From positions 744,001 through 808,000 of the forward strand of contig NZ_JAKIJS010000001.1 in the NCBI RefSeq assembly GCF_021608225.1: 64,000 bases of DNA. The letters are read 5' to 3'. Each line of letters starts with the position of its first letter. Positions within the stretch are counted from its first letter, which is position 1. Below are positions 4,063 through 26,584 of the stretch, one piece after another. The notes below the pieces were generated by a model that saw only the letters and a program-made list of their open reading frames with translations, made no database searches and had not been told where the DNA came from. A program made the translations under genes and the position numbers. This DNA is from Pseudalkalibacillus berkeleyi (GTDB lineage: Bacteria; Bacillota; Bacilli; Bacillales; Fictibacillaceae).

Positions 4063-4077
4063 CAAGGAGGACGCAAT

Positions 4078-6309: not shown

Positions 6310-6348
6310 ACATATAATTGTGTAAAACGGTCATTGGAGAGGATTGTT

Positions 6349-7479: not shown

Positions 7480-7481
7480 AG

Positions 7482-7523: not shown

Positions 7524-7575
7524 AATTTGAAGGTTACATGTATGAAACTAACCTGATGGTAAGTAGCAAGTAATT

Positions 7576-8526: not shown

Positions 8527-8658
8527 TATATCCCCACTTCCTTCAATCGTCGACATATTCATAAAAAATCATGATGGATAATAATCTATTGATAAGTTAT
8601 GAAATATGAAGAGGTTATGATTGGGCATTTATTTTGTTGCTGGAAGAAGGTGTGATAG

Positions 8659-9639: not shown

Positions 9640-9665
9640 GACTAGAGGGGCAGGGAGGTTGTTCA

Positions 9666-10385: not shown

Positions 10386-11104
10386 TTAGTGTCATTACTT
10401 GTACGAATCGGAATACCTTTCGAAATAACATTATAGAAAATTACACCCGCCAAAAGTGGAAAGACAAAGAACTGATTATCATCCTTAACAATGATTCTTT
10501 AAATATTAAAGAGTGGGAAGCACATTTTGAATATGAGAATCATGTGACTATTAAACAAATGAAGGAAAGTTATACATTAGGAGAATGTTTGAATAGTGGT
10601 ATACAACTAGCACAACATGATTACATTGCAAAAATGGATGATGATGATTATTATTCACGAGAATACTTGAATGGTAGCTATGAAGCATTAATGAAAAGTA
10701 AAGCGAAGGTAGTCGGTAAGACCTCAATATATATGTACTTTGAAGAGGATCAATCGCTTCAACTATTTAACCCCTATAAGTTTGCACCTATGAAAATTCA
10801 ACACTCAGAAAGTATGTATAATCCTAAAGTATTAATGGGGGGCACCCTATTGTTCGAAAAGAAAGTCAATGATATTGTACCTTTTCAATCTTCAAGTCTA
10901 GGGGAAGATGCTAAATTTTGTGAGGATTGCATTGATAAGAAAATCACGATCTATTCGGGAAAGAAAGACCATTATGTTTATATTCGCCGATTGCAAAATG
11001 AGCATACATGGAATATCCAAAATGAGCAGCTTAGAAGATTTTGTTCTCTTATCACTAGAACTGATGATTTTCAAACTTACTTATCTACACAAACAAATGA
11101 ATAA
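10382..11104 (+). CDS. GT-A type glycosyltransferase (paralogue group B)
   Basis: 240 residues, clearly paralogous to the preceding gene: MISVITCT, NYTRQKWKDKELIII, a DDDDYYSREY acidic cluster, KTSIYMYF and a C-terminal YIRRLQNEHTW. It overlaps the preceding stop by 4 nt (ATGA). It is the last gene before a strong terminator and probably acts in sequence with its paralogue. Confidence 0.82.
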   Translation: MISVITCTNRNTFRNNIIENYTRQKWKDKELIIILNNDSLNIKEWEAHFEYENHVTIKQMKESYTLGECLNSGIQLAQHDYIAKMDDDDYYSREYLNGSYEALMKSKAKVVGKTSIYMYFEEDQSLQLFNPYKFAPMKIQHSESMYNPKVLMGGTLLFEKKVNDIVPFQSSSLGEDAKFCEDCIDKKITIYSGKKDHYVYIRRLQNEHTWNIQNEQLRRFCSLITRTDDFQTYLSTQTNE

Positions 11105-11163: not shown

Positions 11164-11406
11164 TTACACGAGACGGATCGCTTCTACTTTACGACAGTCT
11201 ACGATGAAAGGATAGTCTCCATCTAAGAAAGTTGCACAGCAAGTAGCATTATCGATGCAAGCAAAAATCAGATTAGGAAATTCATTTCCATCAATGATCA
11301 AATCTACTACTTCCCCTGAACGAAGTTTTTTAAGTTGATCACAAACACATCCGTCGCACTTTGAAGCTCCAGCTACGTCATTACAGCCTTTATCAAATAA
11401 ACTCAT
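11164..11406 (-). CDS. Small Cys-rich protein, CotZ/ExsY-like (putative spore coat), copy 1
   Basis: 80-residue protein with Cys pairs (CDGCVCDQL near 19-27, CIDNATCC, IVDCRK) starting MSLFDK. The pattern CxxCxCxxL followed by a beta-rich part recalls the N-terminal part of the CotZ/CotY/ExsY family, which cross-link into spore outer layers, but it is shorter and the resemblance is weak. It is a clear paralogue of the gene at 25048 (MSLFDK start, FACIDNATCC versus FVCFDDKTCC, VDCRK near the C-terminus). AAGGAGG precedes the ATG. Position beside fabI matches the B. subtilis cotZ-cotY locus. Spore coat role is inference. Confidence 0.72.
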   Translation of the reverse strand: MSLFDKGCNDVAGASKCDGCVCDQLKKLRSGEVVDLIIDGNEFPNLIFACIDNATCCATFLDGDYPFIVDCRKVEAIRLV

Positions 11407-11662: not shown

Positions 11663-11866
11663 ATGGCTAGTACAAAACTTGTTTGGTTACGTATGCACAT
11701 GGGAATGACGCTTACTGAAGTCGTTGTAGAAGCATCCGATATGATCTTCACAAATGTGGAAATTATTGAGGCTGGTAATGACTGGACAGTAATCCGTCAG
11801 AGCGGATCTGGTGGGTTAGGTGACGTTTGGATCCCGACTCAAAATATCGCGTGTATCATCATGTAA
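11663..11866 (+). CDS. Small conserved-looking protein of unknown function (67 aa)
   Basis: 67 residues, no family recognised. It reads as a compact beta-rich protein without Cys (MASTKLVWLRMHMG..., ending VWIPTQNIACIIM, one Cys near the end). AAAGGAGTG lies 7 nt before the ATG, a good terminator follows, and codon use resembles its neighbours, so it is likely a real monocistronic gene. AC-N17-CATATATATA lies upstream, weakly like a SigK promoter. It is divergent from the Cys-rich gene, so a spore-surface role is possible but unproven. Confidence 0.7.
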   Translation: MASTKLVWLRMHMGMTLTEVVVEASDMIFTNVEIIEAGNDWTVIRQSGSGGLGDVWIPTQNIACIIM

Positions 11867-11870
11867 TTGT

Positions 11871-11923: not shown

Positions 11924-12850
11924 TTGAAAGAAACCCTTAATATCCTTTTTATTACAAAACCGATGCAATATCATATTGAAAAAAGTACCTATTATCTTGG
12001 AAAAGAGCTTGAAAAGCATTGTAAGCTTATATATTGGTATGAAGATGGAAATCTCCCGGATATTATCAATCAATTGGCCTCTCAACCTGACTTCATTCTA
12101 TTCAATGACCAGAAGCCTGATTATTGTCCGTGGATCAGAAACATCAACCAAGTCAAGATACCGAAAGGAACGCTCGTACATGATTTGCAGTACCGAATCC
12201 CTCGAAGAAAGAAAATGTACAAAAAGGATCAGATTGAGCACTTATTTGTCCAATATCGAGATGCATTCTTAAATTGGTATCCCGAGTTCAAGGATCAAAT
12301 GATCTGGTTCCCACACCATGTACCTGAAGATATTTTTAAAGATTACAAGTTTCCCAAAAATATCGACATGCTGATGTTCGGAAGCCTCATTCCTCACTTA
12401 TATCCTTTACGAGTAAGAATATACAATCAATTCATTAAACACCCCTCATTCAAATATTACGACCATCCAGGGTACAAGACCCTACCTCAAGGGCATCATT
12501 TTATTACAGGACAACAGTATGCGATGACATTGAATAAATCAAAGCTCTTCTTTACATGTGATTCCATTTATAAATTCCCAGTCCTGAAATATTATGAAGC
12601 ACTAGCTTGTCGTACGCTATTACTTGCATCTGGGTCCAAGGAACTCGAAGACCTAGGGTTTAAAGATGGTGAAACCTTTATAAGCGTGGATGAATACGAC
12701 TTCCAAAAGAAAGCGATGTACTACTTACAAAATGAAAGGGAAAGGAACCGTATTACCATGAACGGAATGAAACTGATTCAACAACGGCATACGACAAAGA
12801 TTCGAGTACAGCAACTGCTATCTTATATCAGACAAATATTGAACCGTTAA
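11924..12850 (+). CDS. CgeB/YkvP-like glycosyltransferase (spore maturation type)
   Basis: 308 residues. The middle and C-terminal half match the CgeB/YkvP glycosyltransferase-like pattern: KNIDMLMFGS, then HPGYKTL, MTLNKSKLFFTCDSI, LKYYEALACRTLLLASGSKELEDLGF, and ISVDEYDF. CgeB of B. subtilis belongs to the cge cluster needed for the outermost spore glycan layer. It has a GT-B fold by family and acts in the cytoplasm. Start is a TTG preceded by AGGTGA. It leads an apparent operon with a GT2 gene and the sulfotransferase. This is the strongest single link between the glycan block and spores. Confidence 0.82.
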   Translation: MKETLNILFITKPMQYHIEKSTYYLGKELEKHCKLIYWYEDGNLPDIINQLASQPDFILFNDQKPDYCPWIRNINQVKIPKGTLVHDLQYRIPRRKKMYKKDQIEHLFVQYRDAFLNWYPEFKDQMIWFPHHVPEDIFKDYKFPKNIDMLMFGSLIPHLYPLRVRIYNQFIKHPSFKYYDHPGYKTLPQGHHFITGQQYAMTLNKSKLFFTCDSIYKFPVLKYYEALACRTLLLASGSKELEDLGFKDGETFISVDEYDFQKKAMYYLQNERERNRITMNGMKLIQQRHTTKIRVQQLLSYIRQILNR

Positions 12851-12861
12851 AGGAAGGGATT

Positions 12862-13626
12862 ATGATGTGGAGGAAGAGTCCAAAAGTCTCCATTGTTATA
12901 CCATTTTATAACTGCATGTATATCGATCGAGCGATTGAAAGTGCACTTGCTCAAACCTACCCGAATTGTGAAATCATTGTTGTAGATGATGGATCAACCA
13001 TGTACGTGGATCGGATAACTCCCTATAAGAAGAAAATAAAATATATCCGAAAAGTGAATGGTGGAACTGCTACCGCCTTGAATAAGGGAATCCAGCTGGC
13101 TGAGGGAGAATACTTTTCTTGGCTTAGTTCTGATGACTTGTATCATCCACAAAAAGTTGAAAAGCAATTACAATACATGATTGATCATCAAGCGTTTATC
13201 AGCTATGGAAATTATTATTTGATGAATGAATATGATCAAATTACAAGTAATCCCACAGGAGTTGGAGCTCTTGACAAGCGACATTTCTTAAGATTAATGA
13301 GGTCGGGCTGCATAATTAATGGATGTACAATTATGGCTAAGATAGAAATCCTGAAAAAGGCGGGATTATTTGATGAAACCCTACCTTTTACACACGACTA
13401 TGATCTTTGGTTGAGACTGTCTCCTGCCTATGACTTTCTTTTTTTTGACCAACCATTAGTAAACTATCGTATACATGGAAACATGGGCTCCCAGAAATAT
13501 AAAGGAGCTATTGCAGTAGAGGTTCAAATGGTGAAACGTAAACACCGAGATACGATCAGCAGAATGATTAACAGCCTTGCACCAGTTAGAAGATCCAGGT
13601 ATCTCAGAAATCAAAATCGTCAATAA
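12862..13626 (+). CDS. Family 2 glycosyltransferase (paralogue group C)
   Basis: 254 residues with SIVIPFYNCMYIDRAIESAL, VVDDGST, NGGTATALNKGI, SWLSSDDLYHPQK (metal site) and FTHDYDLWLRL in the C-terminal acceptor region. Very similar in layout to the gene at 18467. It starts 11 nt after the CgeB-like gene, so the two are co-transcribed. The family makes single glycosidic bonds from UDP- or GDP-sugars; specificity unknown. Confidence 0.88.
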   Translation: MMWRKSPKVSIVIPFYNCMYIDRAIESALAQTYPNCEIIVVDDGSTMYVDRITPYKKKIKYIRKVNGGTATALNKGIQLAEGEYFSWLSSDDLYHPQKVEKQLQYMIDHQAFISYGNYYLMNEYDQITSNPTGVGALDKRHFLRLMRSGCIINGCTIMAKIEILKKAGLFDETLPFTHDYDLWLRLSPAYDFLFFDQPLVNYRIHGNMGSQKYKGAIAVEVQMVKRKHRDTISRMINSLAPVRRSRYLRNQNRQ

Positions 13627-13707
13627 GTTGTCCAATCAACTCGTTTTTGGAGAAATATAATTGAAAATGATGTAATGATTAATAAACATAAGAAAGGAAG
13701 AAGTTCG

Positions 13708-14484
13708 TTGGGACAATCAAATAAAGGTTTGTATCCATTTGTGCTGAATTCCATTCCAAAGAGTGGAACGCATTTGCTCAAACAAATATTAATGGGGATT
13801 CCAGGTATGCAGCACTATCCTGATAAAGGCATGTTTGGGCACTATCACTTCCAAACACCTAAACACTTTGAATGGGTGAGAACCCTTAGTGAAAACGAAT
13901 TTGTGAATGGTCATTTGTTCTACTCCTCTGAATGGGAAGATTTTTTCAAAAAATTGAATATGAAGCAAATATTCGTCCTCCGAGATCCGAGAGATGTCAT
14001 TGTCTCTTATGCTTATTTCATACCCACTCTGAAAATACACCCACTTTATACAACCTTTACTCAAGATGGATTTACTCATAAGGATAGACTTAAGTTTCTT
14101 ATTGAAGGTGGAGACCCGATCAGCCAAACCAAATATGTACAACCGGATGTTCATGAATGGTTTACAAGTTTTTCGAAATGGATGGATAAGGAAAATGTAT
14201 TTACAGTTAGATTTGAGGAATTGAATGGCTCACAGATATTAAGGTTTCAAGTGCTTCATAGAATGGTGAAATTTCTATGGGGTGAAGATCCCGTACCATT
14301 TACGAGGCCAATAATGGTAGGGAAAATGATACAAAACATCAATACTGCAACCTCTCCAACTTTTCGAAAAGGTGGGAGTGGGGGCTGGAAGCATGAATTA
14401 GATGATGAATTGAAGGGACTCTTTAAAGAAAAAGCTGGTCAATTATTGATTTCCCTCGGTTATGAAAAGGATACGAATTGGTAA
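13708..14484 (+). CDS. PAPS-dependent sulfotransferase (Sulfotransferase_1 type)
   Basis: ~258-residue protein carrying the full PAPS-binding signature of cytosolic-type sulfotransferases. The 5'-phosphosulfate loop PKSGTHLL is at 17-24, the 3'-phosphate motif VLRDPRDVIVSYA at 90-102 (Arg92 and Ser100), and the C-terminal RKGGSGGWK at 220-228 corresponds to the conserved RKGxxGxWK. It would move sulfate from PAPS to a hydroxyl or amine; in this operon the acceptor is probably a glycan. The TTG at 13708 follows AAAGGAAGAAG; an ATG at 13675 lacks a clear ribosome site. Such genes are uncommon in Bacillaceae glycan clusters to my knowledge. The acceptor is not determinable. Confidence 0.88.
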   Translation: MGQSNKGLYPFVLNSIPKSGTHLLKQILMGIPGMQHYPDKGMFGHYHFQTPKHFEWVRTLSENEFVNGHLFYSSEWEDFFKKLNMKQIFVLRDPRDVIVSYAYFIPTLKIHPLYTTFTQDGFTHKDRLKFLIEGGDPISQTKYVQPDVHEWFTSFSKWMDKENVFTVRFEELNGSQILRFQVLHRMVKFLWGEDPVPFTRPIMVGKMIQNINTATSPTFRKGGSGGWKHELDDELKGLFKEKAGQLLISLGYEKDTNW

Positions 14485-14485
14485 T

Positions 14486-14520
14486 AGCGGCACACGGACA
14501 AGTGCCGCTTTTTATTTTTT
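14486..14520 (+). terminator. Terminator after the sulfotransferase
   Basis: Stem AGCGGCAC / GTGCCGCT followed by TTTTATTTTTTT. It separates the cgeB-like/sulfotransferase operon from the downstream ten-gene operon. Confidence 0.88.
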
Positions 14521-14565
14521 TATAAGATTAACTGGGAGCCTGTCTATGCGTTCATACAACCATTA

Positions 14566-14574
14566 CATAGTATA
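14566..14574 (+). promoter_or_regulatory. Possible SigK -10 element of the long glycan/PAPS operon
   Basis: CATAGTATA fits the SigK -10 consensus CATAnnnTA exactly and lies 52 nt before the ATG at 14627, just after a terminator. The expected AC at -35 is absent at 16-17 nt, so the call is weak. Confidence 0.35.
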
Positions 14575-14626
14575 GAAATAAATGGAATAAATGTTAGAAC
14601 GGGTCCATAAATGGAAGGAGCATAGT

Positions 14627-15709
14627 ATGAAAATTGTTACCATTCTAGGAACGAGACCAGAAATTATCCGGCTAAGTCTTATTTTGAATAAGCTTGACCA
14701 ATGGGCTGACCAACATGTAATCGTCCATACCGGCCAAAATTTTGTTTATAACTTGAGTGAAATATTTTTCAAGGAACTTGAAATAAGAATGCCAGATTAT
14801 ATTTTGCAAACTGAACAAAGAACATTAGGTCAACAGCTTGGAACGATGTTTGAAAAGGTTGAAGAAATTCTTATTAAAGAGAAACCTGACAAAGTACTTG
14901 TCTTAGGTGACACAAACAGCGCGCTTAGTGCCATCCTATCAGAGAGGATGGGTATTCCTGTCATTCATATGGAGGCAGGAAACCGTTGCTTCGACTTATC
15001 TGTACCAGAGGAAAAGAATCGGAAGGTCATTGATGCAATTTCTACTTATAACCTTCCGTACACACCCAATAGTAAAGAGAACTTGATTCGTGAAGGTGTA
15101 CCATCAAATAGGATCCTGTTATTCGGAAATCCAATATATGAAGTGTTGGCACATTTTCAAGATAAGATAGACAATAGCCACATTTTATCAAAACTCCAGC
15201 TCACCTCAGGAGAATATTTCCTCGTAACAGCTCACCGCGCTGAGAATGTTGATAACCCTAAACATTTGAATGAAATTTTTGAAGGGCTAAACTCGATTGC
15301 CCAAAAGTTTAACAAACCAATCATATGTAGTATTCATCCCAGGACGAAGAGTAGATTGGAAAAACAAATCAGTATTACACATCACCCGCTCGTTCGTTTC
15401 TTTGAACCTTTTGGATTTTTTGATTTTGTCAAACTAGAAAAGAACGCTTTTTGTGTATTAACAGATAGCGGTACTGTTCAAGAAGAGTGTTGTATTTTCC
15501 AAGTACCTACCGTAACCATTCGAAACAGTACAGAACGTCCAGAGACAGTGGATTGTGGTAGTAATGTGATTTCGGGGTTAAATCGTAAGCAGATCTTAGA
15601 TGCAACGACTGTCATGGTGAATAGTGTAAATAACTGGGAGTGTCCAGCAGGTTATATCGAAAAGGAAGTTTCACAGAAAGTTGTACAATTTATATTAGGA
15701 GGTCGCTAA
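14627..15709 (+). CDS. UDP-N-acetylhexosamine 2-epimerase (WecB/FnlC-CapG-WbvD type)
   Basis: 360-residue non-hydrolysing UDP-HexNAc 2-epimerase: TILGTRPEII at the start, VHTGQN, VLGDTNSAL, and DSGTVQEECC near the C-terminus. The variant HMEAGNRCFDLSVPEE is the form I associate with FnlC/CapG/WbvD enzymes, which epimerise C2 of UDP-6-deoxy-L-HexNAc, rather than WecB itself (EAGLRT). The next two genes are the partners expected in that pathway. Start at ATG 14627 after GGAAGGAG; an in-frame ATG at 14591 has none. Confidence 0.85.
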   Translation: MKIVTILGTRPEIIRLSLILNKLDQWADQHVIVHTGQNFVYNLSEIFFKELEIRMPDYILQTEQRTLGQQLGTMFEKVEEILIKEKPDKVLVLGDTNSALSAILSERMGIPVIHMEAGNRCFDLSVPEEKNRKVIDAISTYNLPYTPNSKENLIREGVPSNRILLFGNPIYEVLAHFQDKIDNSHILSKLQLTSGEYFLVTAHRAENVDNPKHLNEIFEGLNSIAQKFNKPIICSIHPRTKSRLEKQISITHHPLVRFFEPFGFFDFVKLEKNAFCVLTDSGTVQEECCIFQVPTVTIRNSTERPETVDCGSNVISGLNRKQILDATTVMVNSVNNWECPAGYIEKEVSQKVVQFILGGR

Positions 15710-15712
15710 CCA

Positions 15713-16696
15713 TTGCGAAACAAAACGATATTAATTACAGGAGGAACAGGATCATGGGGGCATGAACTCGTTAAACAATTACTAGAAAAGAACCCCAAGG
15801 AGATTCGAATTTTCTCTCGGAATGAAGCAAGTCAAGTCCAGATGCAACATGAATTTGAATACAACCCTAAACTAACTTTCATAATCGGTGATATCAGAGA
15901 GTATCAGGGGATATGTAAAGCTACTGAAGGTGCCGATTATGTTTACCATCTTGCAGCATTAAAGCATGTCCCGATTTGTGAACATCAACCTTATGAAGCT
16001 TTGAAAACGAATGTATTAGGGACACAACATGTTATTGAGGCTGCTATACAAAATAATGTGGAAAAAGTGATTTATATATCAACAGACAAAGCTGCAAATC
16101 CTTCAAACTTTTATGGGATGACAAAAGCGATTGGTGAGAAATTGATTATTTATGCCAATGTACTTAGTCCATCAACGAAATTCGTTTGTGTGCGGGGTGG
16201 TAATGTACTTGGAACGAATGGGAGTGTTATCCATGTGTTTAAACGACAAATTGAACAGAAAGGTGAAATTGGTATTACAGATAAGCGGATGACCCGTTTC
16301 TTCTTAACGCTTCAAGATGCAATCAAATTATTGTTCAAAGCTACGAATGAAAGCCGGGGTGGAGAAATTTTCGTCATGAAAATGCCAACTTGTCGGATCA
16401 TCGACCTCGCTGAAGTATTAATTGAAGCTTCAGGTAAAAAGAACATTAAAATTAACGAGGCAGGTATTAGACCGGGTGAAAAGCTGCATGAGATCCTATT
16501 ATCTGAATATGAAAGCAACACAACCGTTTATTTTGATGAAGAATATTTTGTGATCCTTCCTACAATCGAACTGGAGAAACTGAAAGAATTTTATCAAAGT
16601 TATAAAAAAATCGATTTGCACAGTTATAGTTCACATGAATCATTGATGACTAAGCATGAGATTAAGGAAATGCTTAACAAAGGTGGATTCCTGTAA
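15713..16696 (+). CDS. UDP-GlcNAc 4,6-dehydratase/5-epimerase type SDR (FnlA/CapE/WbvB-like)
   Basis: 327-residue SDR of the short FlaA1/CapE group: TGGTGSWGHELV (NAD), IFSRNE, GDIRE, HLAALKHVP, STDKAANPSNFYGMTK (catalytic Tyr-x3-Lys), RGGNVLGT and GEKLHE near the C-terminus. These enzymes convert UDP-GlcNAc to a 4-keto-6-deoxy-L-sugar. It starts at TTG behind GGAGG, 3 nt after the epimerase stop, and overlaps the next gene by 1 nt. With its two neighbours it should make UDP-L-RhaNAc/QuiNAc or UDP-L-FucNAc. Confidence 0.85.
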   Translation: MRNKTILITGGTGSWGHELVKQLLEKNPKEIRIFSRNEASQVQMQHEFEYNPKLTFIIGDIREYQGICKATEGADYVYHLAALKHVPICEHQPYEALKTNVLGTQHVIEAAIQNNVEKVIYISTDKAANPSNFYGMTKAIGEKLIIYANVLSPSTKFVCVRGGNVLGTNGSVIHVFKRQIEQKGEIGITDKRMTRFFLTLQDAIKLLFKATNESRGGEIFVMKMPTCRIIDLAEVLIEASGKKNIKINEAGIRPGEKLHEILLSEYESNTTVYFDEEYFVILPTIELEKLKEFYQSYKKIDLHSYSSHESLMTKHEIKEMLNKGGFL

Positions 16697-17532
16697 TGAA
16701 AGTATTGATACTTGGTGGGAAAGGAATGCTTGGACATGTAATGGTACACTATTTTCAACAATTTCAAGAATATGATGTTCAATACACCCATCGTGACAAG
16801 AATGAATCCAACGGCATTTTCTTGGACGTCCTTGACTTTGATGATGTACGGTCACTAATCTCAACATACAAACCAGATTACCTCATTAATTGTGTTGGAA
16901 TATTGAATGAACATGCTACGGAAAACCCACATGAAGCAATTAAAGTAAATACACTCCTACCACATATACTACGGTATGAATTATCTAAATTTGGTGGCAA
17001 GTTAGTTCACATTAGTACAGATTGTGTTTTTGAAGGAGATAAAGGGAAATATACCGAGTCTGATAAACCAGATGGAAAGAGTGTTTATGCCATGACTAAA
17101 TCTCTTGGTGAGGTGATTGATGAGCCCCATTTGACGGTTCGGACTTCTATTATTGGCCCTGAGCTTAAAGAAGGGATCGGCCTCTATCATTGGTTTATGA
17201 AACAAACTGGAAAAGTAAATGGTTATGTCAATGTATTATGGAATGGTGTAACAACACTAGAACTTTCTAAAGTGGTCAAGTACCTTATTGAAAACAACGG
17301 GTCAGGACTGTTTCATTTGACGGCACCAGAACGTGTTTCGAAATATACGCTTCTCAAAAAGATTCAAAATGTCTTTGAGAAAGAAGATGTAACAGTGATT
17401 CCATATGAAGACGTCATATGTGACCGGACACTCGTAAACACCCGAGAAGATATTGAATACACAGTTTGTTCTTATGATGAGATGCTTAATGAGCTAAAAC
17501 AATGGATCGTCGTTCCACATGAGAAGCGCTAA
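16696..17532 (+). CDS. RmlD-like 4-keto-sugar reductase (SDR; WbvR-like)
   Basis: 278 residues with GGKGMLGHVM at the N-terminus, the RmlD-type strand HISTDCVFEGDKG, and the YAMTK catalytic motif. RmlD-like reductases reduce the 4-keto group of 6-deoxy sugars. It lacks the ~100-residue C-terminal cupin domain of CapF/FnlB, so the set resembles the WbvB-WbvR-WbvD route to UDP-L-RhaNAc/L-QuiNAc more than the CapE-CapF-CapG route to UDP-L-FucNAc. Overlaps both neighbours. Confidence 0.82.
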   Translation: MKVLILGGKGMLGHVMVHYFQQFQEYDVQYTHRDKNESNGIFLDVLDFDDVRSLISTYKPDYLINCVGILNEHATENPHEAIKVNTLLPHILRYELSKFGGKLVHISTDCVFEGDKGKYTESDKPDGKSVYAMTKSLGEVIDEPHLTVRTSIIGPELKEGIGLYHWFMKQTGKVNGYVNVLWNGVTTLELSKVVKYLIENNGSGLFHLTAPERVSKYTLLKKIQNVFEKEDVTVIPYEDVICDRTLVNTREDIEYTVCSYDEMLNELKQWIVVPHEKR

Positions 17533-18421
17533 TCCGAGAATTCTTATAACTGGAGCTACTGGCTTCACAGGCATGTATGCTTATCATTATGCATTAGAAA
17601 AGCATATGAATGTTACTTGCATTGGGAGGACCTTACAGCGTTTCCAACAAAATGATCACTTCGTACAATGCAATCTGACAAATTATTTGGAAATCGATCA
17701 ATTGATTAAAGATATAAAGCCTGACTATGTGCTACATCTTGCGGGATTCAATGATGCAGCAAAGTCTTGGGAAAATCCGATGGAATGTATAGAGACCAAT
17801 TTGCATGGCACGTTGCATTTGTTGGAATCAATTCGAAAATATGTACCCGAATGCAGGACACTCGTAATCGGTTCCGCACTTCAATTTTCCCCTCATAATG
17901 AAAAAGCACCCCATCCTTATAGCTTAAGTAAAACGCTTCAAATTCTTCTCACACAAAATTGGCAGGACCTCTTTTCAATGGATGTGATAGTAGCAAAGCC
18001 TTCAAACTTGATTGGACCAGGCCCTTCTAAAGGCATCTGCTCAATTGTTGCCGAGCAAATCGTAAAATCTGAGCAAGAAGGAAAGCCTGTAAAAATCACA
18101 TTAAATAACAGTTTGGCTCAATGTGATTTTGTGGATGTAAGGGATGTAGTCAAAGCGTACTTTCTTCTCCTAGAATATCCATCCAGTTTCCGTTCTTTTG
18201 AGATTGGATCTGGTACGAGCCATACATTAGAAGAAGTGATAACCATTTACAAAACGATGACCCAACAACAGTTCTTAGTAAATATTAATGAAAGCTGTGA
18301 ACAGACACCCGTTTGTATGGAATTAGGACCTATTCAAACGCTTGGGTGGGTGCCAGAGTTTACTCTACAATCGTCTTTAAAAGATATACTCACTTATTTT
18401 CGAACCTATGAAGCTTTGTAA
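17519..18421 (+). CDS. NAD-dependent epimerase/dehydratase family protein (GDP-mannose dehydratase/RMD-like)
   Basis: 300-residue extended SDR with ITGATGFTGMYA (NAD-binding GxxGxxG), PDYVLHLAGFNDAAKSWENP, VIGSALQFS and YSLSK (Tyr-x3-Lys). The HLAG-x-AAKSWENP and KPSNLIGPG segments resemble GDP-4-keto-6-deoxy-mannose reductases and related enzymes. It overlaps the RmlD-like gene by 14 nt. It may make a second 6-deoxy sugar, but no GDP-sugar synthesis gene is in the window, so the substrate is open. Confidence 0.78.
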   Translation: MRSANPRILITGATGFTGMYAYHYALEKHMNVTCIGRTLQRFQQNDHFVQCNLTNYLEIDQLIKDIKPDYVLHLAGFNDAAKSWENPMECIETNLHGTLHLLESIRKYVPECRTLVIGSALQFSPHNEKAPHPYSLSKTLQILLTQNWQDLFSMDVIVAKPSNLIGPGPSKGICSIVAEQIVKSEQEGKPVKITLNNSLAQCDFVDVRDVVKAYFLLLEYPSSFRSFEIGSGTSHTLEEVITIYKTMTQQQFLVNINESCEQTPVCMELGPIQTLGWVPEFTLQSSLKDILTYFRTYEAL

Positions 18422-18466
18422 AGTCAATTCTATGTAAAGATTAAATAAGGAAATGAGGAAAAGACG

Positions 18467-19216
18467 TTGGTAAACGATCGTCCCAAAATAAGTGTAGTCA
18501 TCCCTTTTTATAATTGTCCATATATACATCTAGCCATTAGAAGTGTATTAAGACAAACTTATAGGAATTATGAAATCATCGTTGTTGATGACGGATCCAC
18601 ACTTAACCAAAATTTAATTAGTCCATATTTGAAACAAATCAAATACTACTACAAGGATAACGGTGGTACTGCAACAGCTCTGAATAAAGGGATTCAAGTT
18701 GCTTCTGGTGATTTGATCGCTTGGTTAAGTTCCGATGATATTTTCTTACGAAACAAACTTCACAGACAAGTGCAATACATGCAAGAGACTGGAGCAGATA
18801 TGGTTTATACGAACTTTAGTTTAATTAATGAACGGAACAGGATTATTAGAGAGAATGTAGGTTTGGTTCTCGGAAACCGTAAGGATTTACTGAAAAGACT
18901 TCCAATTAGCTGTCCTATTAACGGAAGTTCTGTATTAGTCAAAAAAGAAATCTTCACAAATGTTGGTTTATTTGATCCTACCTTACGTTATACACAGGAT
19001 TATGATATGTGGATTCGAATGGCTGCAAAGGCAAAAATCGAGATGTTAAATGAAACGTTATTGCATTATCGTCATCATGAAAATATGGGTTCAAAATTAT
19101 ATGTTGAAGAGCAATGGAAGGAAATTAAACAACTCCAAGACAAGTATAAAGGAATGTTAGCTAGATTGATACATTGTGAAGAACTTGGTTATGGAGGAGA
19201 ATGTGATGAAATATGA
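18467..19216 (+). CDS. Family 2 glycosyltransferase (paralogue group C)
   Basis: 249 residues with SVVIPFYNCPYIHLAIRSVL, VVDDGST, NGGTATALNKGI, AWLSSDDIFLRNK and YTQDYDMWIRM. It is a close paralogue of the gene at 12862, which sits in the neighbouring operon. Start is TTG after GAGGAAAAG. Its end overlaps the next glycosyltransferase by 11 nt. Confidence 0.88.
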   Translation: MVNDRPKISVVIPFYNCPYIHLAIRSVLRQTYRNYEIIVVDDGSTLNQNLISPYLKQIKYYYKDNGGTATALNKGIQVASGDLIAWLSSDDIFLRNKLHRQVQYMQETGADMVYTNFSLINERNRIIRENVGLVLGNRKDLLKRLPISCPINGSSVLVKKEIFTNVGLFDPTLRYTQDYDMWIRMAAKAKIEMLNETLLHYRHHENMGSKLYVEEQWKEIKQLQDKYKGMLARLIHCEELGYGGECDEI

Positions 19217-20402
19217 AAAGGAAATCACTGTAATCATACCGACATATAACAAGTATCCTCAAAATCTCTTAACCCTTTACTCATTAACCCATCAAACATT
19301 TGACCTCACAAAAGTCGAAGTGATTATGGTCGATGATGGATCAACAGATGAAACAGAATCCATCACTAAACTCCATAACTTCCCTTTCGAATTCAATTAT
19401 ATGAAATGTAGAACTAATATTGGTAGACCCGCTGCCAGAAATAAAGGCTTGAAAATGGCTAAGGGCAAGGTCATCATCTTCTTGGATGCAGAAATTCTTG
19501 TAAGACCCGATTTCCTAACAATACACCATCAGTATCATGCTGAAACAACAAATCTCGTCGTGTCGGGTATCATGTTTCTAAAACGGTTATATTCTGTTTT
19601 ATTTCCAGATTTCTCAGAGGAACAACTTGAAGAATGCATGAGACTTATGATACGTAATCGAACGCTCTATAAAAAATTAGAAAGCTTCAATACTCAGCCG
19701 CACATCTTGCCGCTTATAGAAAAATCTGATATTGAAAATGACTCTTTTCAAAAGCTTTCTTTGCCTTCTAAAGTAGAGGTGTTTTACAAAGAAATTATCG
19801 TGAAAAATTACGGTTATGGACTATCGAACTATCAAATTCCATGGCAATTATTTGGTACTGGTCACGTATCTGTTTCTAAAAAAGCACTTGATGAAGTGGG
19901 ATTATTTGAAGTGTACCCAGGTTATGGATGGGATGATTGTGAAATGGGATATCGGTTATACAAGAACGGGGCTACTTATCTGACAGACAGAAGGTTAATT
20001 AGTTACCATCAGGAGCACCCAATAGCTCCGACGATTAAGAATGAATCCAAACAAAACTACTACCTCTTTCAAGAAAAGTATAAAGAAGTAGACCAGATGA
20101 TCATTAGTTTGACATTTCTTCCAGTCCCATTCAATCTTCATCAAACTAATCAAATACTTGTCAATTATAAGCGCTTATGTAAAGAGCATCCTAAGAGCTT
20201 TCCAATAATGAAGAAGTATTTCCAGTCGATGCTAAGAAAAATTGGATTTTTGGCAAGCAAAAGTATGAACATCACTAACCTTAAACCAACTCCAACAAAC
20301 ATGACAGAACTCCATCAACTGGAACTGGAGAAAGAAAGACTTAAGGAATTAAATATATATATGACTTTTCTTCAATGTTTTAAACGACTGGAAAACTTAT
20401 GA
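19206..20402 (+). CDS. Larger GT2 glycosyltransferase with galactosyltransferase-type C-terminal region
   Basis: 398 residues: ITVIIPTYNKYPQN, VDDGSTDETES, FLDAEILVRPDFL (the usual DDD replaced by DAE), then FGTGHVSVSKKALDEVGLF and GYGWDDCEMGYRLYKNGA, the WEDxE-like motif of the Glyco_transf_7C region seen in chondroitin/heparosan-type polymerases. The C-terminal ~80 residues are a helical extension. The ATG at 19206 follows GGAGGAG; in-frame starts upstream are inside the previous gene. It could be a chain-extending transferase. Confidence 0.82.
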   Translation: MKYEKEITVIIPTYNKYPQNLLTLYSLTHQTFDLTKVEVIMVDDGSTDETESITKLHNFPFEFNYMKCRTNIGRPAARNKGLKMAKGKVIIFLDAEILVRPDFLTIHHQYHAETTNLVVSGIMFLKRLYSVLFPDFSEEQLEECMRLMIRNRTLYKKLESFNTQPHILPLIEKSDIENDSFQKLSLPSKVEVFYKEIIVKNYGYGLSNYQIPWQLFGTGHVSVSKKALDEVGLFEVYPGYGWDDCEMGYRLYKNGATYLTDRRLISYHQEHPIAPTIKNESKQNYYLFQEKYKEVDQMIISLTFLPVPFNLHQTNQILVNYKRLCKEHPKSFPIMKKYFQSMLRKIGFLASKSMNITNLKPTPTNMTELHQLELEKERLKELNIYMTFLQCFKRLENL

Positions 20403-20420
20403 ATGAAAGGAATCATCTAA

Positions 20421-21455
20421 ATGAAAATAACGTTTGTTGCGATTACCCTTTGTAAGGGAGGGGCACAAAGAATGTTAGTTGAATTAGCGAATGGTCTATC
20501 AAGAAAAGGACATGATGTTTCTTTTCTAATGCCACCTAACGGCGTTATTGAGTACCCCGTAAATGTTAATGTGATTCGCACAGCAGGTCATATTATCAGA
20601 GCAACTGATATTCCGAAAAGCGATGTCATCGTCTCCAACTTCTATACTTTGACAAATACATGTCAAGAGGCAAGCTTATCAGGAAAAGGTACACACGTCC
20701 GAATAAGTCTTTGTTATGAACCGGTATTTTTACCTGATCATGAAGCTTCATTCAAAAGTTACCATGTAAGTAAAAATCTTGTAGTTCTTTCGGATTGGCA
20801 ACAACAACTTGTTAAACTTAATCATGGAATTGAAGGAAAAATCGTTCCTGTAGGAGTGAGTAATCTATTCAAGAACTTAGGTATTAGGCGAAGTACTAAA
20901 AGAGTGCAAGTTAGTGGCATCTTACGTATACCAGAAGGAGGATATTCGTGGCACAGAGAACAAGAGTATTTAATTGAAGCTTTTACAGCCCTTAAGAGAA
21001 AATACCCGAGTGTTATCTTCAATATTATTACCCCACCGAGTGAATTGAGGTCTTCGGTCACACTTCGTAAAATTCATGCCAATCGATTATTCAATTCAAT
21101 GACGCCCAACGATGATCAACAACTTAATCAATTTTTCAACAATACTGACATTTTTGTCAGTGCTTCAACATATGATACAGCTTCACTTCCGGGTCTTGAA
21201 GCGATGAAGTGTGGAGCTGCACTTGCAACCGTTTATTCCGGAGGGAATATGGATTATTGCAGACACGAAGAAAATTGCCTTCTATCGTATCGTCACGAAA
21301 ATAGACTAATCCAACATGTATCTTCATTGATCGATAATCCAGGGTTACGAAATAAATTAGCGATCGCAGGAGAACAAGAAGCGATTAAATGGACATGGGC
21401 TAGAAGTGTCAACCATTTCGAAAATGCTTTAGAGACTTTTATTAAAAGGGGGTAG
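20421..21455 (+). CDS. Family 4 (GT-B) glycosyltransferase
   Basis: 344 residues with an N-terminal [15 protein letters not shown] donor/acceptor loop typical of GT4 enzymes and a C-terminal [24 protein letters not shown] stretch carrying the E-x7-E-like nucleotide-sugar-binding region. It is a retaining transferase by family. It sits 5 nt before the ATP sulfurylase gene, tying glycan assembly and sulfate activation into one transcription unit. Confidence 0.82.
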
Positions 21456-21459
21456 ACGT

Positions 21460-22602
21460 ATGGTAAGTATTCCACACGGAGGTTCTTTAATTAATCGTAT
21501 AGATAAGCAAACAAAAGCAAATGACTTATCAAAATTTAAAAAAATAACTCTATCATCAGATGAGCTTGCTGATTTAGAAGCTATCGCTACAGGTGTTTAC
21601 AGTCCATTAGTAGGTTTTTTGAATGAAGAGGACTATAAAAGTGTACTTCATTCAATGCGCTTATCTAGTGGATTAGTTTGGTCGATTCCTATCACTCTTT
21701 CGATTCCAAATGAACAAGTAGAACAGTTGCAGAGAGGGGAAACAGTCACACTCGTCTATGATGAGGTGATATACGGGTATATCATGATTGAAAGTATCTA
21801 TGAAGTTGATTTGGAAGAAGAAGCGGAATTCATATATGGGACAACTAATAAGGATCACCCTGGTGTTGCTAAAATAATGATTCGTTCACCCTATTATGTC
21901 GGCGGAGAAGTCATGCTGATCCGTAAGAAATATAGTGAATTTCCGGACTATGTATACACACCAGGAGAAACAAGGGAACTTTTTGAACAAAAAGGATGGA
22001 AAACAATCGTAGGATTCCAAACGCGAAATCCAATTCATAGAGCTCATGAGTATATTCAAAAGGTTGCATTGGAACAGGTTGACGGTTTATTTCTACATCC
22101 GCTAGTAGGTGAAACAAAATCTGATGATATCCCAGCTGATATAAGGATGAAATGCTATGAAGTATTGTTGAAAAATTATTATCCTGCAGAACGCGTCCAT
22201 CTTGGGGTCTTCAATAGTTCTATGAGGTATGCGGGTCCACGAGAAGCTGTCTTTCATGCACTTGTCAGAAAGAACTTTGGCTGTACTCATTTTATTGTAG
22301 GAAGGGACCATGCTGGAGTAGGAGATTATTATGGCACCTACGATGCTCAGCGTATTTTTGACTCTTTCACATTAATCGAACTTGGCATTACACCAATGCG
22401 GATGGAGCATAGCTTTTATTGTAAGAAATGTATGCAAATGGCGTCTTCGAAGACCTGTCCACATGATATAAAAGACCATATCCATCTATCTGGAACGAAA
22501 GTGCGAAACATGTTGAAAGAAGGAAAAGTACCACCGAGGGAATTCAGTCGTCCAGAAGTGATCGGTATACTGGTGGAATTATATAACAAGCCAAAGGAAT
22601 GA
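21460..22602 (+). CDS. sat: Sulfate adenylyltransferase (ATP sulfurylase)
   Basis: Makes adenosine 5'-phosphosulfate (APS) from sulfate and ATP. The 380-residue monofunctional form has the ATP-binding [10 protein letters not shown] at 187-196, [22 protein letters not shown] and HLSGTKVR, plus a Cys-rich segment ([16 protein letters not shown]) common in bacterial Sat. It lies inside the glycan operon, 5 nt after the GT4 gene and 12 nt before the permease. No PAPS/APS reductase or sulfite reductase is nearby, which favours a role in sulfation over cysteine synthesis. Confidence 0.95.
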
Positions 22603-22613
22603 CATAATAGCAA

Positions 22614-24377
22614 ATGATGGAAATTTGGATTACCTATACGGTAATAGGCTTCATGTTTTTGTTCTTAATCGCTAATTGGTATAGTGCTGAGGTTGTTATA
22701 CTCAGTGCGGTTATTATATTGATATGGAGTGGAATTCTGACCATTCCTGAGGCATTTAATGGATTCATCAATGAAGGAGTTCTTACAATTGCCTCGTTAT
22801 TTGTAATCATGAATACACTTCAAAAACACCCTGCATTTATAAAAATCACGAAGATTATTTTTGGAAATAAACAGACACTGAAGAGTGGTTTAGTACGTAT
22901 GATGGCTGTAACTGGCGCGTTTTCTAGTTTAATGAACAACACACCTCTCGTCATACTTTTGACCCCAATCGTCAAAAAATGGTCTGACAAGTATAACATT
23001 TATCCTTCTAAACTATTGATCCCTCTTTCTTATGCCGCCATCATCGGAGGTATGTGTACGCTCTTAGGTACTTCTACCAATCTAGTCGTCCATACATTAT
23101 TACAAAAAGAGGGTTATGATGGTTTCTCATTATTTGAGCTTAGCTTTATAGGTATTCCGTTTTTTGTAATTGCTTTGATTTATATGATCACGTTCGGACA
23201 TAAGTTATTACCTGAGCGTGTCTCCATCCATATGGATGATCTACAAAGCACTCAATTTAATGTGCAAGCCATTGTGAATGATTCTTTTCCTTGGATCGGA
23301 AAATCAATTGAACAAGCCGGACTAAGGCACCTTAAACAAAGTTATGTTATGGCAATTCTAAGGCAAGGTGAGTTTATTTTCCCAGTAACTCCGGACCAGA
23401 AAATATGTTTGAACGACCATCTTCTACTAGTAGGTGATCAATTATCTGCAGATGAATTGAAGCGTTTTGAAGGGCTATCCATTCAAGCGTCTAATTTTGA
23501 AATTGGAGGGCAAGGATCCGAATTCAAATTATTAGAAGCCACAATTCCACTGCACTCTGCATTTATTTCATTAAGTATTAAAGAAATCGGATTTCGTGCG
23601 AAGTATGGAGGCGTAGTTGTAGCTGTTTATAGAAATGGTCTGCGAATGAATGGTAAAGTTGGATCTATCCGCTTAAAAGCCGGAGATATGCTTTATATTC
23701 TTACGACAAAAGATACTGTTCAATACGAACGTCTGGAAAGAAATTTATTATTATTATCTACTTATACGCCAGAGAAAGAAGTGAAAATGAGAGATTGGAT
23801 ACCAGTGATTTTGTTTGGTTTAATGATCTCCGTAGTTACATTTGGCCTTGTGCAAGTGGCCCAGGCTGCGATAACAACTGCATTACTGTTGTTGATATTG
23901 AGGAGTACTACATTTAATGATGCCAAAGATTCAATTAAATGGGATGTCCTATTTATTATAGGAGGAGCCTTTGGAATAGCTGAGGCGATGATTAAAACTG
24001 GAGCAGCTCAATATTTATCTAATGTTCTTTTGCGATCTCTAGATCAATTGACGCCTTTTTTCTTACTGTTACTTATTTACGTCATAACAAATCTTCTCAC
24101 CGAATTGATTACAAATAACGCAGCAGCCGTCATCATGTTCCCGATTGCCATGTCTTTTGTTCAAGAATTGTCGTTAAACCCAGAGCCATACGCTGTTGCC
24201 ATTGCCATAGCTGCTTCAGCTAGCTTTTCGACCCCTATTGGATATCAGACTAATTTACTTGTATATAGCACAGGTCAATATCGATTCAATGATTTTATTA
24301 AAGTAGGCATACCATTAAATATACTTGGACTAATCATATCTATCATGATCATTCCATTCGTATGGCCATTAAATTAG
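22614..24377 (+). CDS. SLC13 (DASS) family permease with two TrkA-C domains, probable sulfate importer
   Basis: 587-residue membrane protein. Hydrophobic segments fill residues ~1-200 and ~395-585, with paired signature loops MNNTPLVILLTPI / GTSTNLVVHTLL and TELITNNAAAVIMFPIA / STPIGYQTNLLVY, the inverted-repeat ion-binding sites of the SLC13/divalent-anion symporter fold. Between them (~205-370) lie two RCK_C/TrkA-C domains (YVMAILRQGEFIFP..., YGGVVVAVYRNGLRM...). The same architecture occurs in algal and bacterial sulfate transporters (SLT/SAC1-like). Flanking sat and cysC makes sulfate the likely substrate. Confidence 0.88.
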   Translation: MMEIWITYTVIGFMFLFLIANWYSAEVVILSAVIILIWSGILTIPEAFNGFINEGVLTIASLFVIMNTLQKHPAFIKITKIIFGNKQTLKSGLVRMMAVTGAFSSLMNNTPLVILLTPIVKKWSDKYNIYPSKLLIPLSYAAIIGGMCTLLGTSTNLVVHTLLQKEGYDGFSLFELSFIGIPFFVIALIYMITFGHKLLPERVSIHMDDLQSTQFNVQAIVNDSFPWIGKSIEQAGLRHLKQSYVMAILRQGEFIFPVTPDQKICLNDHLLLVGDQLSADELKRFEGLSIQASNFEIGGQGSEFKLLEATIPLHSAFISLSIKEIGFRAKYGGVVVAVYRNGLRMNGKVGSIRLKAGDMLYILTTKDTVQYERLERNLLLLSTYTPEKEVKMRDWIPVILFGLMISVVTFGLVQVAQAAITTALLLLILRSTTFNDAKDSIKWDVLFIIGGAFGIAEAMIKTGAAQYLSNVLLRSLDQLTPFFLLLLIYVITNLLTELITNNAAAVIMFPIAMSFVQELSLNPEPYAVAIAIAASASFSTPIGYQTNLLVYSTGQYRFNDFIKVGIPLNILGLIISIMIIPFVWPLN

Positions 24378-24389
24378 GGAGGTGGTCTT

Positions 24390-24998
24390 ATGACTTCAAA
24401 TTTATTCTGGCATCACCAAGATGTTTCTAAGAAAGCCAGACAACTGTTAAATGGACATAAAAGTTTCGTTATTTGGTTTACAGGATTATCAGGATCGGGG
24501 AAATCCACGATAGCAAACAAACTGGATCGGTCCTTATACCGAAACGCGATTTCAACTTATTTATTGGATGGAGATAATTTAAGAATGGGACTGAACAGTG
24601 ATCTAAGTTTTAAGCCTGAGGATCGTGCAGAAAACATCCGAAGGGTAGGAGAGGTTGCTCGCCTATTTGTAGATGCAGGTATTGTAGTATTAGCAACATT
24701 CGTATCCCCATATCGTGAAGATCGTGAATTTGTCAGAAGCCTATTTAACAAGGATGAATTTATTGAAGTGTATGTAAAATGTAATATGGACACATTAAAA
24801 GCCAGAGACCCTAAAGGGTTGTACAAAAAAGCATTGAACGGTGAAATCGAAAACTTCACAGGTATTTCGGATCCATATGAAGTACCTGAAGATCCTGAAA
24901 TCATTGTGGATACAAACATGATGTCTGCTAGCGTATGTGTGAAACAAATTCAAAACTATCTTTATAATAATGGCTATTTACCAAAAAAAAGTAGTTAA
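24390..24998 (+). CDS. cysC: Adenylylsulfate kinase (APS kinase)
   Basis: Phosphorylates APS to PAPS, the sulfate donor for sulfotransferases. The 202-residue protein has the P-loop GLSGSGKST (32-40), LLDGDNLRMGLN, the APS-binding FSPEDRAENIRR-type segment (FKPEDRAENIRR) and TFVSPYREDR. GGGAGGTGG precedes the ATG, 12 nt after the permease. Together with Sat and the sulfotransferase at 13708 it completes a sulfate-to-product route within 11 kb. It ends the long operon before a terminator. Confidence 0.95.
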   Translation: MTSNLFWHHQDVSKKARQLLNGHKSFVIWFTGLSGSGKSTIANKLDRSLYRNAISTYLLDGDNLRMGLNSDLSFKPEDRAENIRRVGEVARLFVDAGIVVLATFVSPYREDREFVRSLFNKDEFIEVYVKCNMDTLKARDPKGLYKKALNGEIENFTGISDPYEVPEDPEIIVDTNMMSASVCVKQIQNYLYNNGYLPKKSS

Positions 24999-25047: not shown

Positions 25048-25320
25048 TTAATCACTATTCACTTCAAGGAATAATGCATCAATCTTGCGACAATCAACAA
25101 TGACTACATTACGCTCATCCTCATCTCCATCATCTTCTTGGATGAACTTGACACAGCATGTTTTATCATCAAAGCATACGAAGATTAAATCCTCAATTTC
25201 TTCTCCGTTCACGATGATTTTTTCTACTTCTTCTCCGACACTTAACCCTTTAAGTTCATTACATATACATGTATCACATGCATTGTCTGTTTTTTTCCAA
25301 TCTTTATCAAATAAACTCAT
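25048..25320 (-). CDS. Small Cys-rich protein, CotZ/ExsY-like (putative spore coat), copy 2
   Basis: 90-residue paralogue of the gene at 11164: MSLFDK start, CDTCICNELKGLSVGE, FVCFDDKTCCVKF and VIVDCRKIDALFL, with an acidic insertion (EDDGDEDE) near residue 70. Six Cys are conserved in spacing between copies. AAGGAGG lies before the ATG at 25320. The upstream region is also conserved with copy 1 over more than 100 nt, so gene and promoter were duplicated together. The two copies bracket the sulfotransferase-PAPS part of the cluster. A spore outer-layer role is inferred. Confidence 0.72.
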   Translation of the reverse strand: MSLFDKDWKKTDNACDTCICNELKGLSVGEEVEKIIVNGEEIEDLIFVCFDDKTCCVKFIQEDDGDEDERNVVIVDCRKIDALFLEVNSD

Positions 25321-25715: not shown

Positions 25716-26477
25716 CTATTTCCTGAAAAATGGATTAATGACTTTAGTTTCTGCATTTTTATTTTGTTTCTTAAAAGGATTAATCTTTGAAGTCTCCGAA
25801 TTTGTATTATTCTTAAAGGGATTAATGGGTTCTCCTTGTTTCTGTTCTTCAGGAGGAATGAGGAATTTAGGCTTTTCAGGCCAAGAAGGCTGTAACTGGT
25901 AAGAGGACAATGCAGGATTGATTGGTGCAAGCACTTTCCTGAGCAGGTTTTCATAGGTTGAAGTAGTGATTGATAGTGGGTGATTAGCAGATTCTGATTG
26001 GCACGTTTGAAGAATTAAATAGGTTAACCATTCTGCAATTTCTTCACATTGATTTGGATTCCAATAAACTTTCGTATCCCTATTGGTGATAATTGGGTTA
26101 AATCCTTTATAAACCCAATCCAGTGTGGATTTAAATGGTCCCTTTTGCTTCCTATATTCATAAACATCTTGGTCTGATTCCACTGATAAATACGACACAG
26201 AATCAGGTTCTCTAAACGATGAAAGCACTAAATGTTCTTCATTTTTGTGCGTTGTCGATAATGACACATCTGTATGTTTCAATAATTGATTCAAACGATT
26301 GAATTCTTTTTTATTCAAACCAATAATTCGGATCGTGTAATTTGATAAACCACCAACGAGATCTTGTTCGGATTCATTCCATATAAGTCCCCAGAAAACT
26401 GCAATCTGTTTTAATGCTTCAAGTTCGTCTATAGGTAGCATACATAACTCTCTTCTATTATATGAAACTCGATGCAT
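25716..26477 (-). CDS. Uncharacterised protein with C-terminal INPF repeats
   Basis: 253 residues, family not recognised. An N-terminal ~170-residue part looks globular and mixed alpha/beta (rich in Trp, Tyr). The last ~50 residues are polar and repeat INPFK / INPFKK / INPFF three times. The ATG at 26477 follows GAGGGAGG; the earlier in-frame ATG at 26537 has no ribosome site. It is divergent from the coat-like gene at 26585. The tail of short repeated motifs recalls coat-protein interaction tails, but this is only a suggestion. Confidence 0.65.
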   Translation of the reverse strand: MHRVSYNRRELCMLPIDELEALKQIAVFWGLIWNESEQDLVGGLSNYTIRIIGLNKKEFNRLNQLLKHTDVSLSTTHKNEEHLVLSSFREPDSVSYLSVESDQDVYEYRKQKGPFKSTLDWVYKGFNPIITNRDTKVYWNPNQCEEIAEWLTYLILQTCQSESANHPLSITTSTYENLLRKVLAPINPALSSYQLQPSWPEKPKFLIPPEEQKQGEPINPFKNNTNSETSKINPFKKQNKNAETKVINPFFRK

Positions 26478-26584
26478 AGCTTTTCCTCCCTCAAAAATAG
26501 GCATTAATCTTTGTGTCATTAGCCGTCGTATTCCCATAGTATGTATTGAATCTTCAGTTCATGATGAAGAAAGGAAGGGAAACT

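Follow-up and report, generated by a model that had tools for sequence, protein, structure and literature searches.

A putative spore-surface glycan locus that carries its own sulfation genes in Pseudalkalibacillus berkeleyi

The 64,000-nucleotide stretch of the Pseudalkalibacillus berkeleyi genome analysed here (contig NZ_JAKIJS010000001.1, positions 744,001 to 808,000; hereafter the window) contains a cluster of 14 genes arranged as two operons on the + strand (window positions 11663–24998). Operon 1 consists of a 67-aa open reading frame (ORF), a CgeB-like glycosyltransferase, a GT2 glycosyltransferase and a sulfotransferase. Operon 2 runs from a UDP-N-acetylglucosamine (UDP-GlcNAc) 2-epimerase through a 4,6-dehydratase, an RmlD-type reductase, an epimerase, two GT2 enzymes and a GT4 enzyme to the ATP sulfurylase Sat, an SLC13 permease and the adenosine 5'-phosphosulfate (APS) kinase CysC. 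Comparison with related genomes makes it probable that the locus directs the synthesis of a spore-surface glycan and carries its own sulfation genes, with which the mother cell sulfates that glycan. The cluster would then work like a crust or exosporium glycan locus with a sulfation module added, although most of the steps beyond family assignment are ones that we infer.

An earlier reading of the sequence (the original prediction) had placed most of these genes together at 11924–24998 on one strand, in two adjacent operons. Both points are borne out. All of the genes it named are present on the + strand with Pfam support, the glycosyltransferases matching PF13524, PF00535 and PF00534, and the Sat and CysC domains scoring 332.9 and 220.6 bits. 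The operons are separated by a terminator-like hairpin past the sulfotransferase (14486–14509), though such matches show no excess in the stretch (8 observed against 9.7 in shuffles). The list did not mention four sugar-nucleotide genes (14591–18421) or the 67-aa ORF (11663–11866), and the likeness to CgeB, while backed by PF13524, is that of a broad domain. The duplicated Cys-rich genes that flank the cluster are indeed paralogues (46% identical), but the term ‘coat-like’ was applied by eye, with no family match. The assignment to the Bacillaceae was wrong, as NCBI places Pseudalkalibacillus in the Fictibacillaceae. Five further genomes of the genus share the order of the cluster genes and a sixth has them reshuffled; in Fictibacillus, a second genus, 15 genomes have a shorter version that includes Sat and CysC at the corresponding site. 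The cluster is therefore not a product of chance. Four of the five genus genomes with the same order have an extra minus-strand glycosyltransferase ahead of the sulfotransferase, and in G030 one GT2 of the cluster is fragmented.

The import of sulfate, its activation and its transfer, as originally predicted, are supported by the domains of the encoded proteins and by the lack of matches for sulfate reduction in the window genome, which is 3.5 Mb in size and 99.97% complete. A single Sat match was found genome-wide, in operon 2. Neither PF01507 (3'-phosphoadenosine 5'-phosphosulfate (PAPS) reductase) nor PF01077 (sulfite reductase) was matched in this genome, the same searches being positive in 14/14 and 11/14 control genomes, respectively. 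Assimilatory sulfate reduction, taken as a PAPS/APS reductase together with a sulfite reductase, was thus not found. With the only Sat inside the cluster and no match to either reductase, PAPS would hardly be usable for assimilation and most likely serves sulfation alone. The cluster sulfotransferase is present in seven of eight genomes of the genus, with Sat 2–8 kb away in all seven. The eighth (G031) is without Sat or sulfotransferase, and a lone CysC, 70% identical, is left at its site (G031:C8, L188:7513-8115).

The sulfotransferase matches PF00685 with 56.4 bits (cut-off 22). Enzymes of the PAPS-dependent type are recognized by a 5'-phosphosulfate loop (PKSGT), a 3'-phosphate motif (R...S) and a C-terminal GxxGxW motif. 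The PKSGTH and RDPRDVIVSY motifs of the cluster enzyme are intact. Across 28 aligned sulfotransferases S30, G31, R103, D104, R106, D107, S111, G233 and W238 are invariant, and P28, K29, T32 and G236 are conserved in at least 90%. A profile of nine relatives searched against the PDB matches cytosolic sulfotransferases (best E 7.7e-12). These motifs and structural matches cannot separate a sugar from a small-molecule acceptor.

A destination at the spore surface, also put forward originally, is supported by a neighbouring coat gene, by Priestia plasmids that carry CotX, by the export machinery not being seen and by σK-type -10 boxes. Beyond CysC lie two divergent genes, X and Y. Y scores 145 bits against NF052457, the BMQ_0737-family of morphogenetic spore coat proteins (cut-off 71), and is present in all 13 genomes searched for it. 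BMQ_0737 is said, in the title of a 2014 paper, to be crucial to the outermost spore layers; a separate study places it with the proteins that lie outermost on B. megaterium spores (PMC4656864). X and Y are adjacent in the window and in nine further genomes mapped, as well as in five of the other six genus loci (no X was seen in G027) and in 14 of the 15 stretches from Fictibacillus (that of L064, the exception, took in X only). The divergent intergenic region between them (26478–26584) is near-identical in six genus genomes, as are some 50 nt before Y in seven, with protein X itself only 39–49% conserved.

The stretch from fabI to X/Y forms the variable part of the site, fabI itself falling inside only some of the fetched stretches. 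Sat and CysC are found there in 22 of 34 family genomes; G012, G017 and G018 hold other glycan genes or His/Cys-rich repeat proteins instead. A PF00685 match occurs in 19 of the 22 family genomes with Sat at the locus versus 2 of the 12 without it (Fisher p 1e-4, uncorrected for kinship; the lists of genomes with a locus Sat were compiled by hand), and in the two exceptions, G019 and G025, the sulfotransferase is at most about 6 kb from the reductase gene. As a separate observation, three second-genus loci without the cassette (L190, L191 and L192) have at this site proteins beginning MSVNPFPR/N, MSVSPFPR or MSVQPFPR, and L190 and L191 also have His/Cys-rich repeat proteins there.

Sulfotransferases 34–38% identical to the cluster enzyme are encoded on six plasmid records, all from Priestia megaterium. 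All four of the sulfotransferase plasmids that were read have the same four sugar-nucleotide genes, among them the 2-epimerase (66–68% identical to that of the window), the dehydratase (69–70%) and the reductase (56–58%), and two of these four stretches (L182 and L183) include CotX-domain spore coat genes. The reductase is found on 42 plasmid records, of which 35 are from Priestia. A CotX-domain match is present on all 35 of these and on all six sulfotransferase plasmids, so that the association of UDP-sugar genes with CotX on plasmids is strong. The sulfotransferase is on 6 of the 35, and of seven plasmid stretches read one (L182) has CysC. Plasmid pBM600 of strain QM B1551 is among the 35 and not among the six. 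Strains cured of pBM600 had lost the exosporium, an essential role of pBM500 not being excluded by the authors, and glycan genes are undiscussed in the part of that paper's text examined (PMC4674009). Small, apparently β-rich proteins of 135–148 aa recur beside sulfotransferase or UDP-sugar genes in Paenibacillus, Bacillus, Fictibacillus and the Priestia plasmids, including pBM600. The members scanned gave no Pfam or NCBIfam match, and they are candidates for a surface protein or glycan acceptor.

The sugar-nucleotide genes of operon 2 give some indication of the glycan. The nearest solved structure to the 2-epimerase is CapG; those nearest to the dehydratase are UDP-GlcNAc C6 dehydratase, CapD, UDP-GlcNAc 4,6-dehydratase/5-epimerase and CapE; and those nearest to the reductase are RmlD proteins. 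A CapG-like 2-epimerase with a dehydratase close to FnlA and CapE is also a feature of the CapEFG/FnlABC systems, which make UDP-N-acetyl-L-fucosamine and UDP-N-acetyl-L-quinovosamine. However, the window dehydratase scores under the NCBIfam cut-offs of both PseB and FnlA, and the window locus has an RmlD-type reductase; a reductase of the CapF/FnlB type, with an extra C-terminal cupin domain, was not found in it. The donor probably carries an L-configured 2-acetamido-2,6-dideoxyhexose, of either the N-acetyl-L-rhamnosamine or the N-acetyl-L-quinovosamine type, an assignment that leans on the WbvBRD pathway. A protein with PF14667 is present in the G014 locus.

By hydropathy, the SLC13 permease is the sole multi-span protein encoded between 1 and 31 kb of the window. 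The proteins of this region run against Pfam, from all but a few of its ORFs, included no flippase, polymerase, exporter or initiating transferase. In the B. subtilis crust, glycan synthesis takes place in the mother cell (PMC7439481), and the lack of visible export genes fits a glycan that may likewise be made there. A CATAnnnTA sequence (CATAGTATA in the window) lies 44–61 nt upstream of the operon 2 start in all seven cluster-bearing genus genomes; it is the best of 60 letter permutations, the runner-up being found in 3/7. The published σK -10 element is CATANNNTD (PMC9562818) or GCATANNNTA (PMC3416734). The corresponding boxes of Y and X, CATAGTATG (7/7) and CATACTATG (6/6), sit in an intergenic stretch that hardly varies within the genus. 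Claims of full σK or σE promoters were dropped, there being no excess over shuffles, and the conserved -10 boxes were used instead. As judged from these boxes, σK may well control the cluster.

A wider survey took in the best 80 of 133 sulfotransferase relatives, which equal 78 named loci, some with stretches that end at contig ends. Its search profile was alignment A2 (9 rows), made from A1 (12 rows) by removal of the three G014 sulfotransferases. Some genomes give more than one locus and several loci belong to genomes already counted in the family (for example L105 = G033, L106 = G030, L107 = G029, L109 = G027 and L113 = G004); therefore the survey and the family counts are not independent. 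Bacillota account for 33 of the 78 loci. The triad of epimerase, dehydratase and reductase lies within 10 kb in 15/33 of these and in 0/45 of the others; CysC at 40% identity or more, or Sat at 50% or more, is nearby in 18/33 versus 1/45; and Y is nearby in 6/33 versus 0/45. Co-occurrence with cgeB-like genes, for which such a survey had been proposed, is seen too, a CgeB-like gene lying within 10 kb in 9/33 Bacillota loci versus 0/45 others. Twelve of the 33 Bacillota loci have neither the triad nor CysC/Sat.

These findings suggest a scheme in which Sat and CysC, fed by the SLC13 permease, would make PAPS, and the PF00685 sulfotransferase would transfer the sulfuryl group from it to a sugar in the glycan that the CgeB-like, GT2 and GT4 enzymes assemble. 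The amino sugar of this glycan would derive from UDP-GlcNAc via the CapG-like epimerase, the dehydratase and the RmlD-like reductase. The glycan would be laid on the forespore from the mother-cell cytoplasm, so that no glycan export would be needed, and Y may, judging from its family, help to build the outermost layer.

Several known systems share parts of this arrangement. The B. subtilis crust system (sps, yfn, ytc and cge) has, like the window, glycosyltransferases including CgeB and a UDP-GlcNAc 4,6-dehydratase (SpsM), but the sugars named for it are legionaminic acid, rhamnose, quinovose and others. In two texts on the crust, words in ‘sulf’ concern an assay and sulfur amino acids only, and PF00685 was matched in 2 of the 14 control genomes, B. 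subtilis not being one of them. The Priestia exosporium plasmids resemble the window in their CapG-like, dehydratase, RmlD-like and epimerase genes (40–70% identical), their glycosyltransferases and CotX; they differ in that these genes are plasmid-borne, pBM600 is not among the sulfotransferase matches and CysC is present in just one of the seven stretches read. In PAPS sulfation modules of the NodPQ/NodH type, sulfate activation genes adjoin a sulfotransferase and glycan genes. Unlike these, the window is from Bacilli, has separate Sat and CysC and no match for sulfate reduction, and lies at a spore coat site. The original prediction knew of no described sulfated spore glycan in Bacilli. Among the matches listed in searches of the open-access literature, no report of such a glycan or of a spore sulfotransferase was found; subscription journals were mostly outside this scope, which makes it weak evidence of absence.

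Sulfate assimilation normally starts with Sat and CysC, and PF01507 is matched in 30 of 34 family genomes, in several of them only weakly. The genes for Sat, the permease and CysC might thus be ordinary assimilation genes placed here by chance, leaving the sulfotransferase as the sole sulfation gene. This role was rejected for the window genome, in which both PF01507 and PF01077 are unmatched, and seems highly improbable for the cluster. PF01507 is absent from three of the seven cluster-bearing genus genomes (G000, which is the window genome, G028 and G032). PF01077 has no match in G000 and G031 and one each in G028 and G032 (frames of 214 and 231 aa), the remaining four of the eight genus genomes having 2–4 matches that include frames of about 550 aa. 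The relatives with a strong PF01507 match (G027, G029, G030 and G033) have, besides the locus Sat, a second Sat at most 2 kb from it. A further possibility, which we regard as quite unlikely, is that PAPS is made mainly for a second sulfotransferase or for sulfation of small molecules, the cluster enzyme being minor. The window genome does encode a second PF00685 protein (G000:C1:270669-271406, L096:9667-10434), 40% identical to the cluster enzyme and remote from glycan genes. Its neighbours (an AI-2E transporter, a protein with phospholipase D and lamin-tail domains, and a class-V aminotransferase) are largely common to four genus relatives, and G028 and three of the twelve Bacillota loci noted above (L120, L121 and L158) have neighbours in common with it. 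Several Fictibacillus genomes hold Sat and CysC at the locus with a sulfotransferase elsewhere only. However, the sulfotransferase is clustered with Sat and CysC in every genus genome that has it.

It is also possible, though unlikely, that the cluster serves the vegetative cell, its product being a sulfated polymer or glycoprotein such as a capsule, a secreted polysaccharide or a flagellin glycan, and that the coat gene is an accidental neighbour. In Rossellomorea vietnamensis (L133) and Bacillus sp. P14.5 (L130), sat-SLC13-cysC, UDP-sugar genes and a sulfotransferase lie some kb from fliS/fliD-like genes (named by eye), and in P. spartinae (L110) Sat, SLC13, CysC and the sulfotransferase stand directly ahead of a gas-vesicle gene; L111 and L112 have the same four genes. 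The module is therefore not tied to spores in every genome. A vegetative product is opposed by the linkage to Y across the family, by CotX on every Priestia reductase plasmid, by the lack of any flippase, polymerase, exporter or initiating transferase seen in the 31 kb and by the window ORFs, among which no flagellar gene was noticed.

Sulfation of a spore-surface glycan remains the reading that we prefer, as a prediction from genome comparison, and besides the flagellar and gas-vesicle neighbourhoods a number of observations weigh against it. The ‘fabI-cotZ locus’ of the original prediction does not fit literally, as PF10612, the CotZ family, has no match in the window genome (the B. subtilis control was positive). 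An intact sulfotransferase lies within the fetched stretch in only two of the 15 Fictibacillus loci (G004 and G014); it is broken in G007 and G013, and Sat is fragmented in G004. G002, G003 and G008 retain Sat and CysC without any PF00685 match, for which an unrecognised sulfotransferase or decay are the sole explanations that we can offer. The second sulfotransferase, away from glycan genes, may share the PAPS. The Priestia plasmids are interrelated, so that the 35 are not independent events. Finally, the -35 parts of the promoters do not fit σK, the -10 ahead of operon 1 is one base off, and strict σK and σE patterns number 7 and 0 in the window against 8.1 and 2.2 in single-base shuffles.

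The surface of a spore influences how it adheres and disperses. If the prediction is true, sulfate esters there would lend it a strong negative charge that does not depend on pH, and the polymer would represent a new class of bacterial sulfated glycan. With only slightly better than even confidence, the evidence can be taken further: sulfate reduction would have been lost or never present, uptake and activation of sulfate would be kept solely for a sulfated spore armour, the first sulfated spore-surface polymer in Bacillota, and the module would move between chromosomes and exosporium plasmids, entering and leaving a site reserved for spore glycans. Because other uses of activated sulfate seem to be minor in the window genome, the case lends itself to a direct test.

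Table 1. Features of the window, and members of the small β-rich protein family in other loci.
Feature	Position	Strand	Basis or remark
fabI, left border of the variable glycan site	1469..2245	+	named by eye and in the original prediction; blastp 93–95% within genus
Adjoining glycan genes: PIG-L, epimerase, methyltransferase, GT2s, UDP-galactopyranose mutase, galE	2380..11104	+	
Short-chain dehydrogenase/reductase among the adjoining glycan genes	7576-8562	-	
Cys-rich 80-aa protein, coat-like by eye only	11164..11406	-	no Pfam or NCBIfam match
Small ORF, 67 aa, upstream of cgeB; CgeA-like by position only	11663..11866	+	no Pfam match; present in 4 other genus genomes
CgeB-like glycosyltransferase	11924..12850	+	PF13524, broad domain and sole basis of CgeB-likeness
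GT2 glycosyltransferase	12862..13626	+	Pfam scan
PAPS-type sulfotransferase	13675..14484	+	PF00685; PKSGTH and RDPRDVIVS motifs intact
Terminator-like hairpin between operons 1 and 2, directly past sulfotransferase	14486..14509	+	
CATAGTATA, CATAnnnTA -10 box of operon 2	14566..14574	+	conserved in 7/7 genus genomes with the cluster
UDP-GlcNAc 2-epimerase, CapG-like	14591..15709 (likely start 14627)	+	Pfam, NCBIfam, solved-structure search
UDP-GlcNAc 4,6-dehydratase, probably inverting (PseB/FnlA/CapE type)	15713..16696	+	Pfam, NCBIfam, solved-structure search
RmlD-type sugar-nucleotide reductase, 278 aa	16696..17532	+	Pfam, NCBIfam, solved-structure search
NAD-dependent epimerase/dehydratase	17519..18421	+	Pfam scan
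GT2 glycosyltransferase	18467..19216	+	Pfam scan
GT2 glycosyltransferase	19176..20402	+	Pfam scan
GT4-type glycosyltransferase	20421..21455	+	Pfam scan
ATP sulfurylase Sat, sole one found in genome	21460..22602	+	PF01747 and PUA
SLC13-type permease with TrkA_C domains, putative sulfate importer	22614..24377	+	CitMHS/Na_sulph_symp and TrkA_C
APS kinase CysC	24390..24998	+	PF01583
Cys-rich paralogue of 11164-11406	25048..25320	-	46% identity
Gene X, family-less, divergent from Y, retained at site across family	25716..26477	-	
CATAGTATG, conserved -10-like box ahead of Y (7/7); same bases read CATACTATG toward X (6/6)	26535..26543	+	
Gene Y, BMQ_0737-family morphogenetic spore coat protein	26585..27766	+	NF052457
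Small β-rich family members	L115:11018-11428, L119:9338-9745, L182:14898-15311, L183:18546-18959, L186:24128-24562, L103:11276-11722		

Pfam and NCBIfam scans gave no family for the two Cys-rich proteins or gene X. The Rfam scan of the stretch returned nothing beyond one tRNA, and scans for sigma-70 promoters and terminators gave counts at or under shuffle level. The glycan gene set at 2380–11104, a second one that lies beside fabI, is retained in some relatives without the sulfation cassette, and its UDP-galactopyranose mutase points to a glycan with galactofuranose as a further product of this site. The region between the first Cys-rich gene and operon 1 (11406–11663) has two conserved elements, the inverted repeat TATGCA-N8/9-TGCATA and the block AGGGTTACTATACTATATTG.

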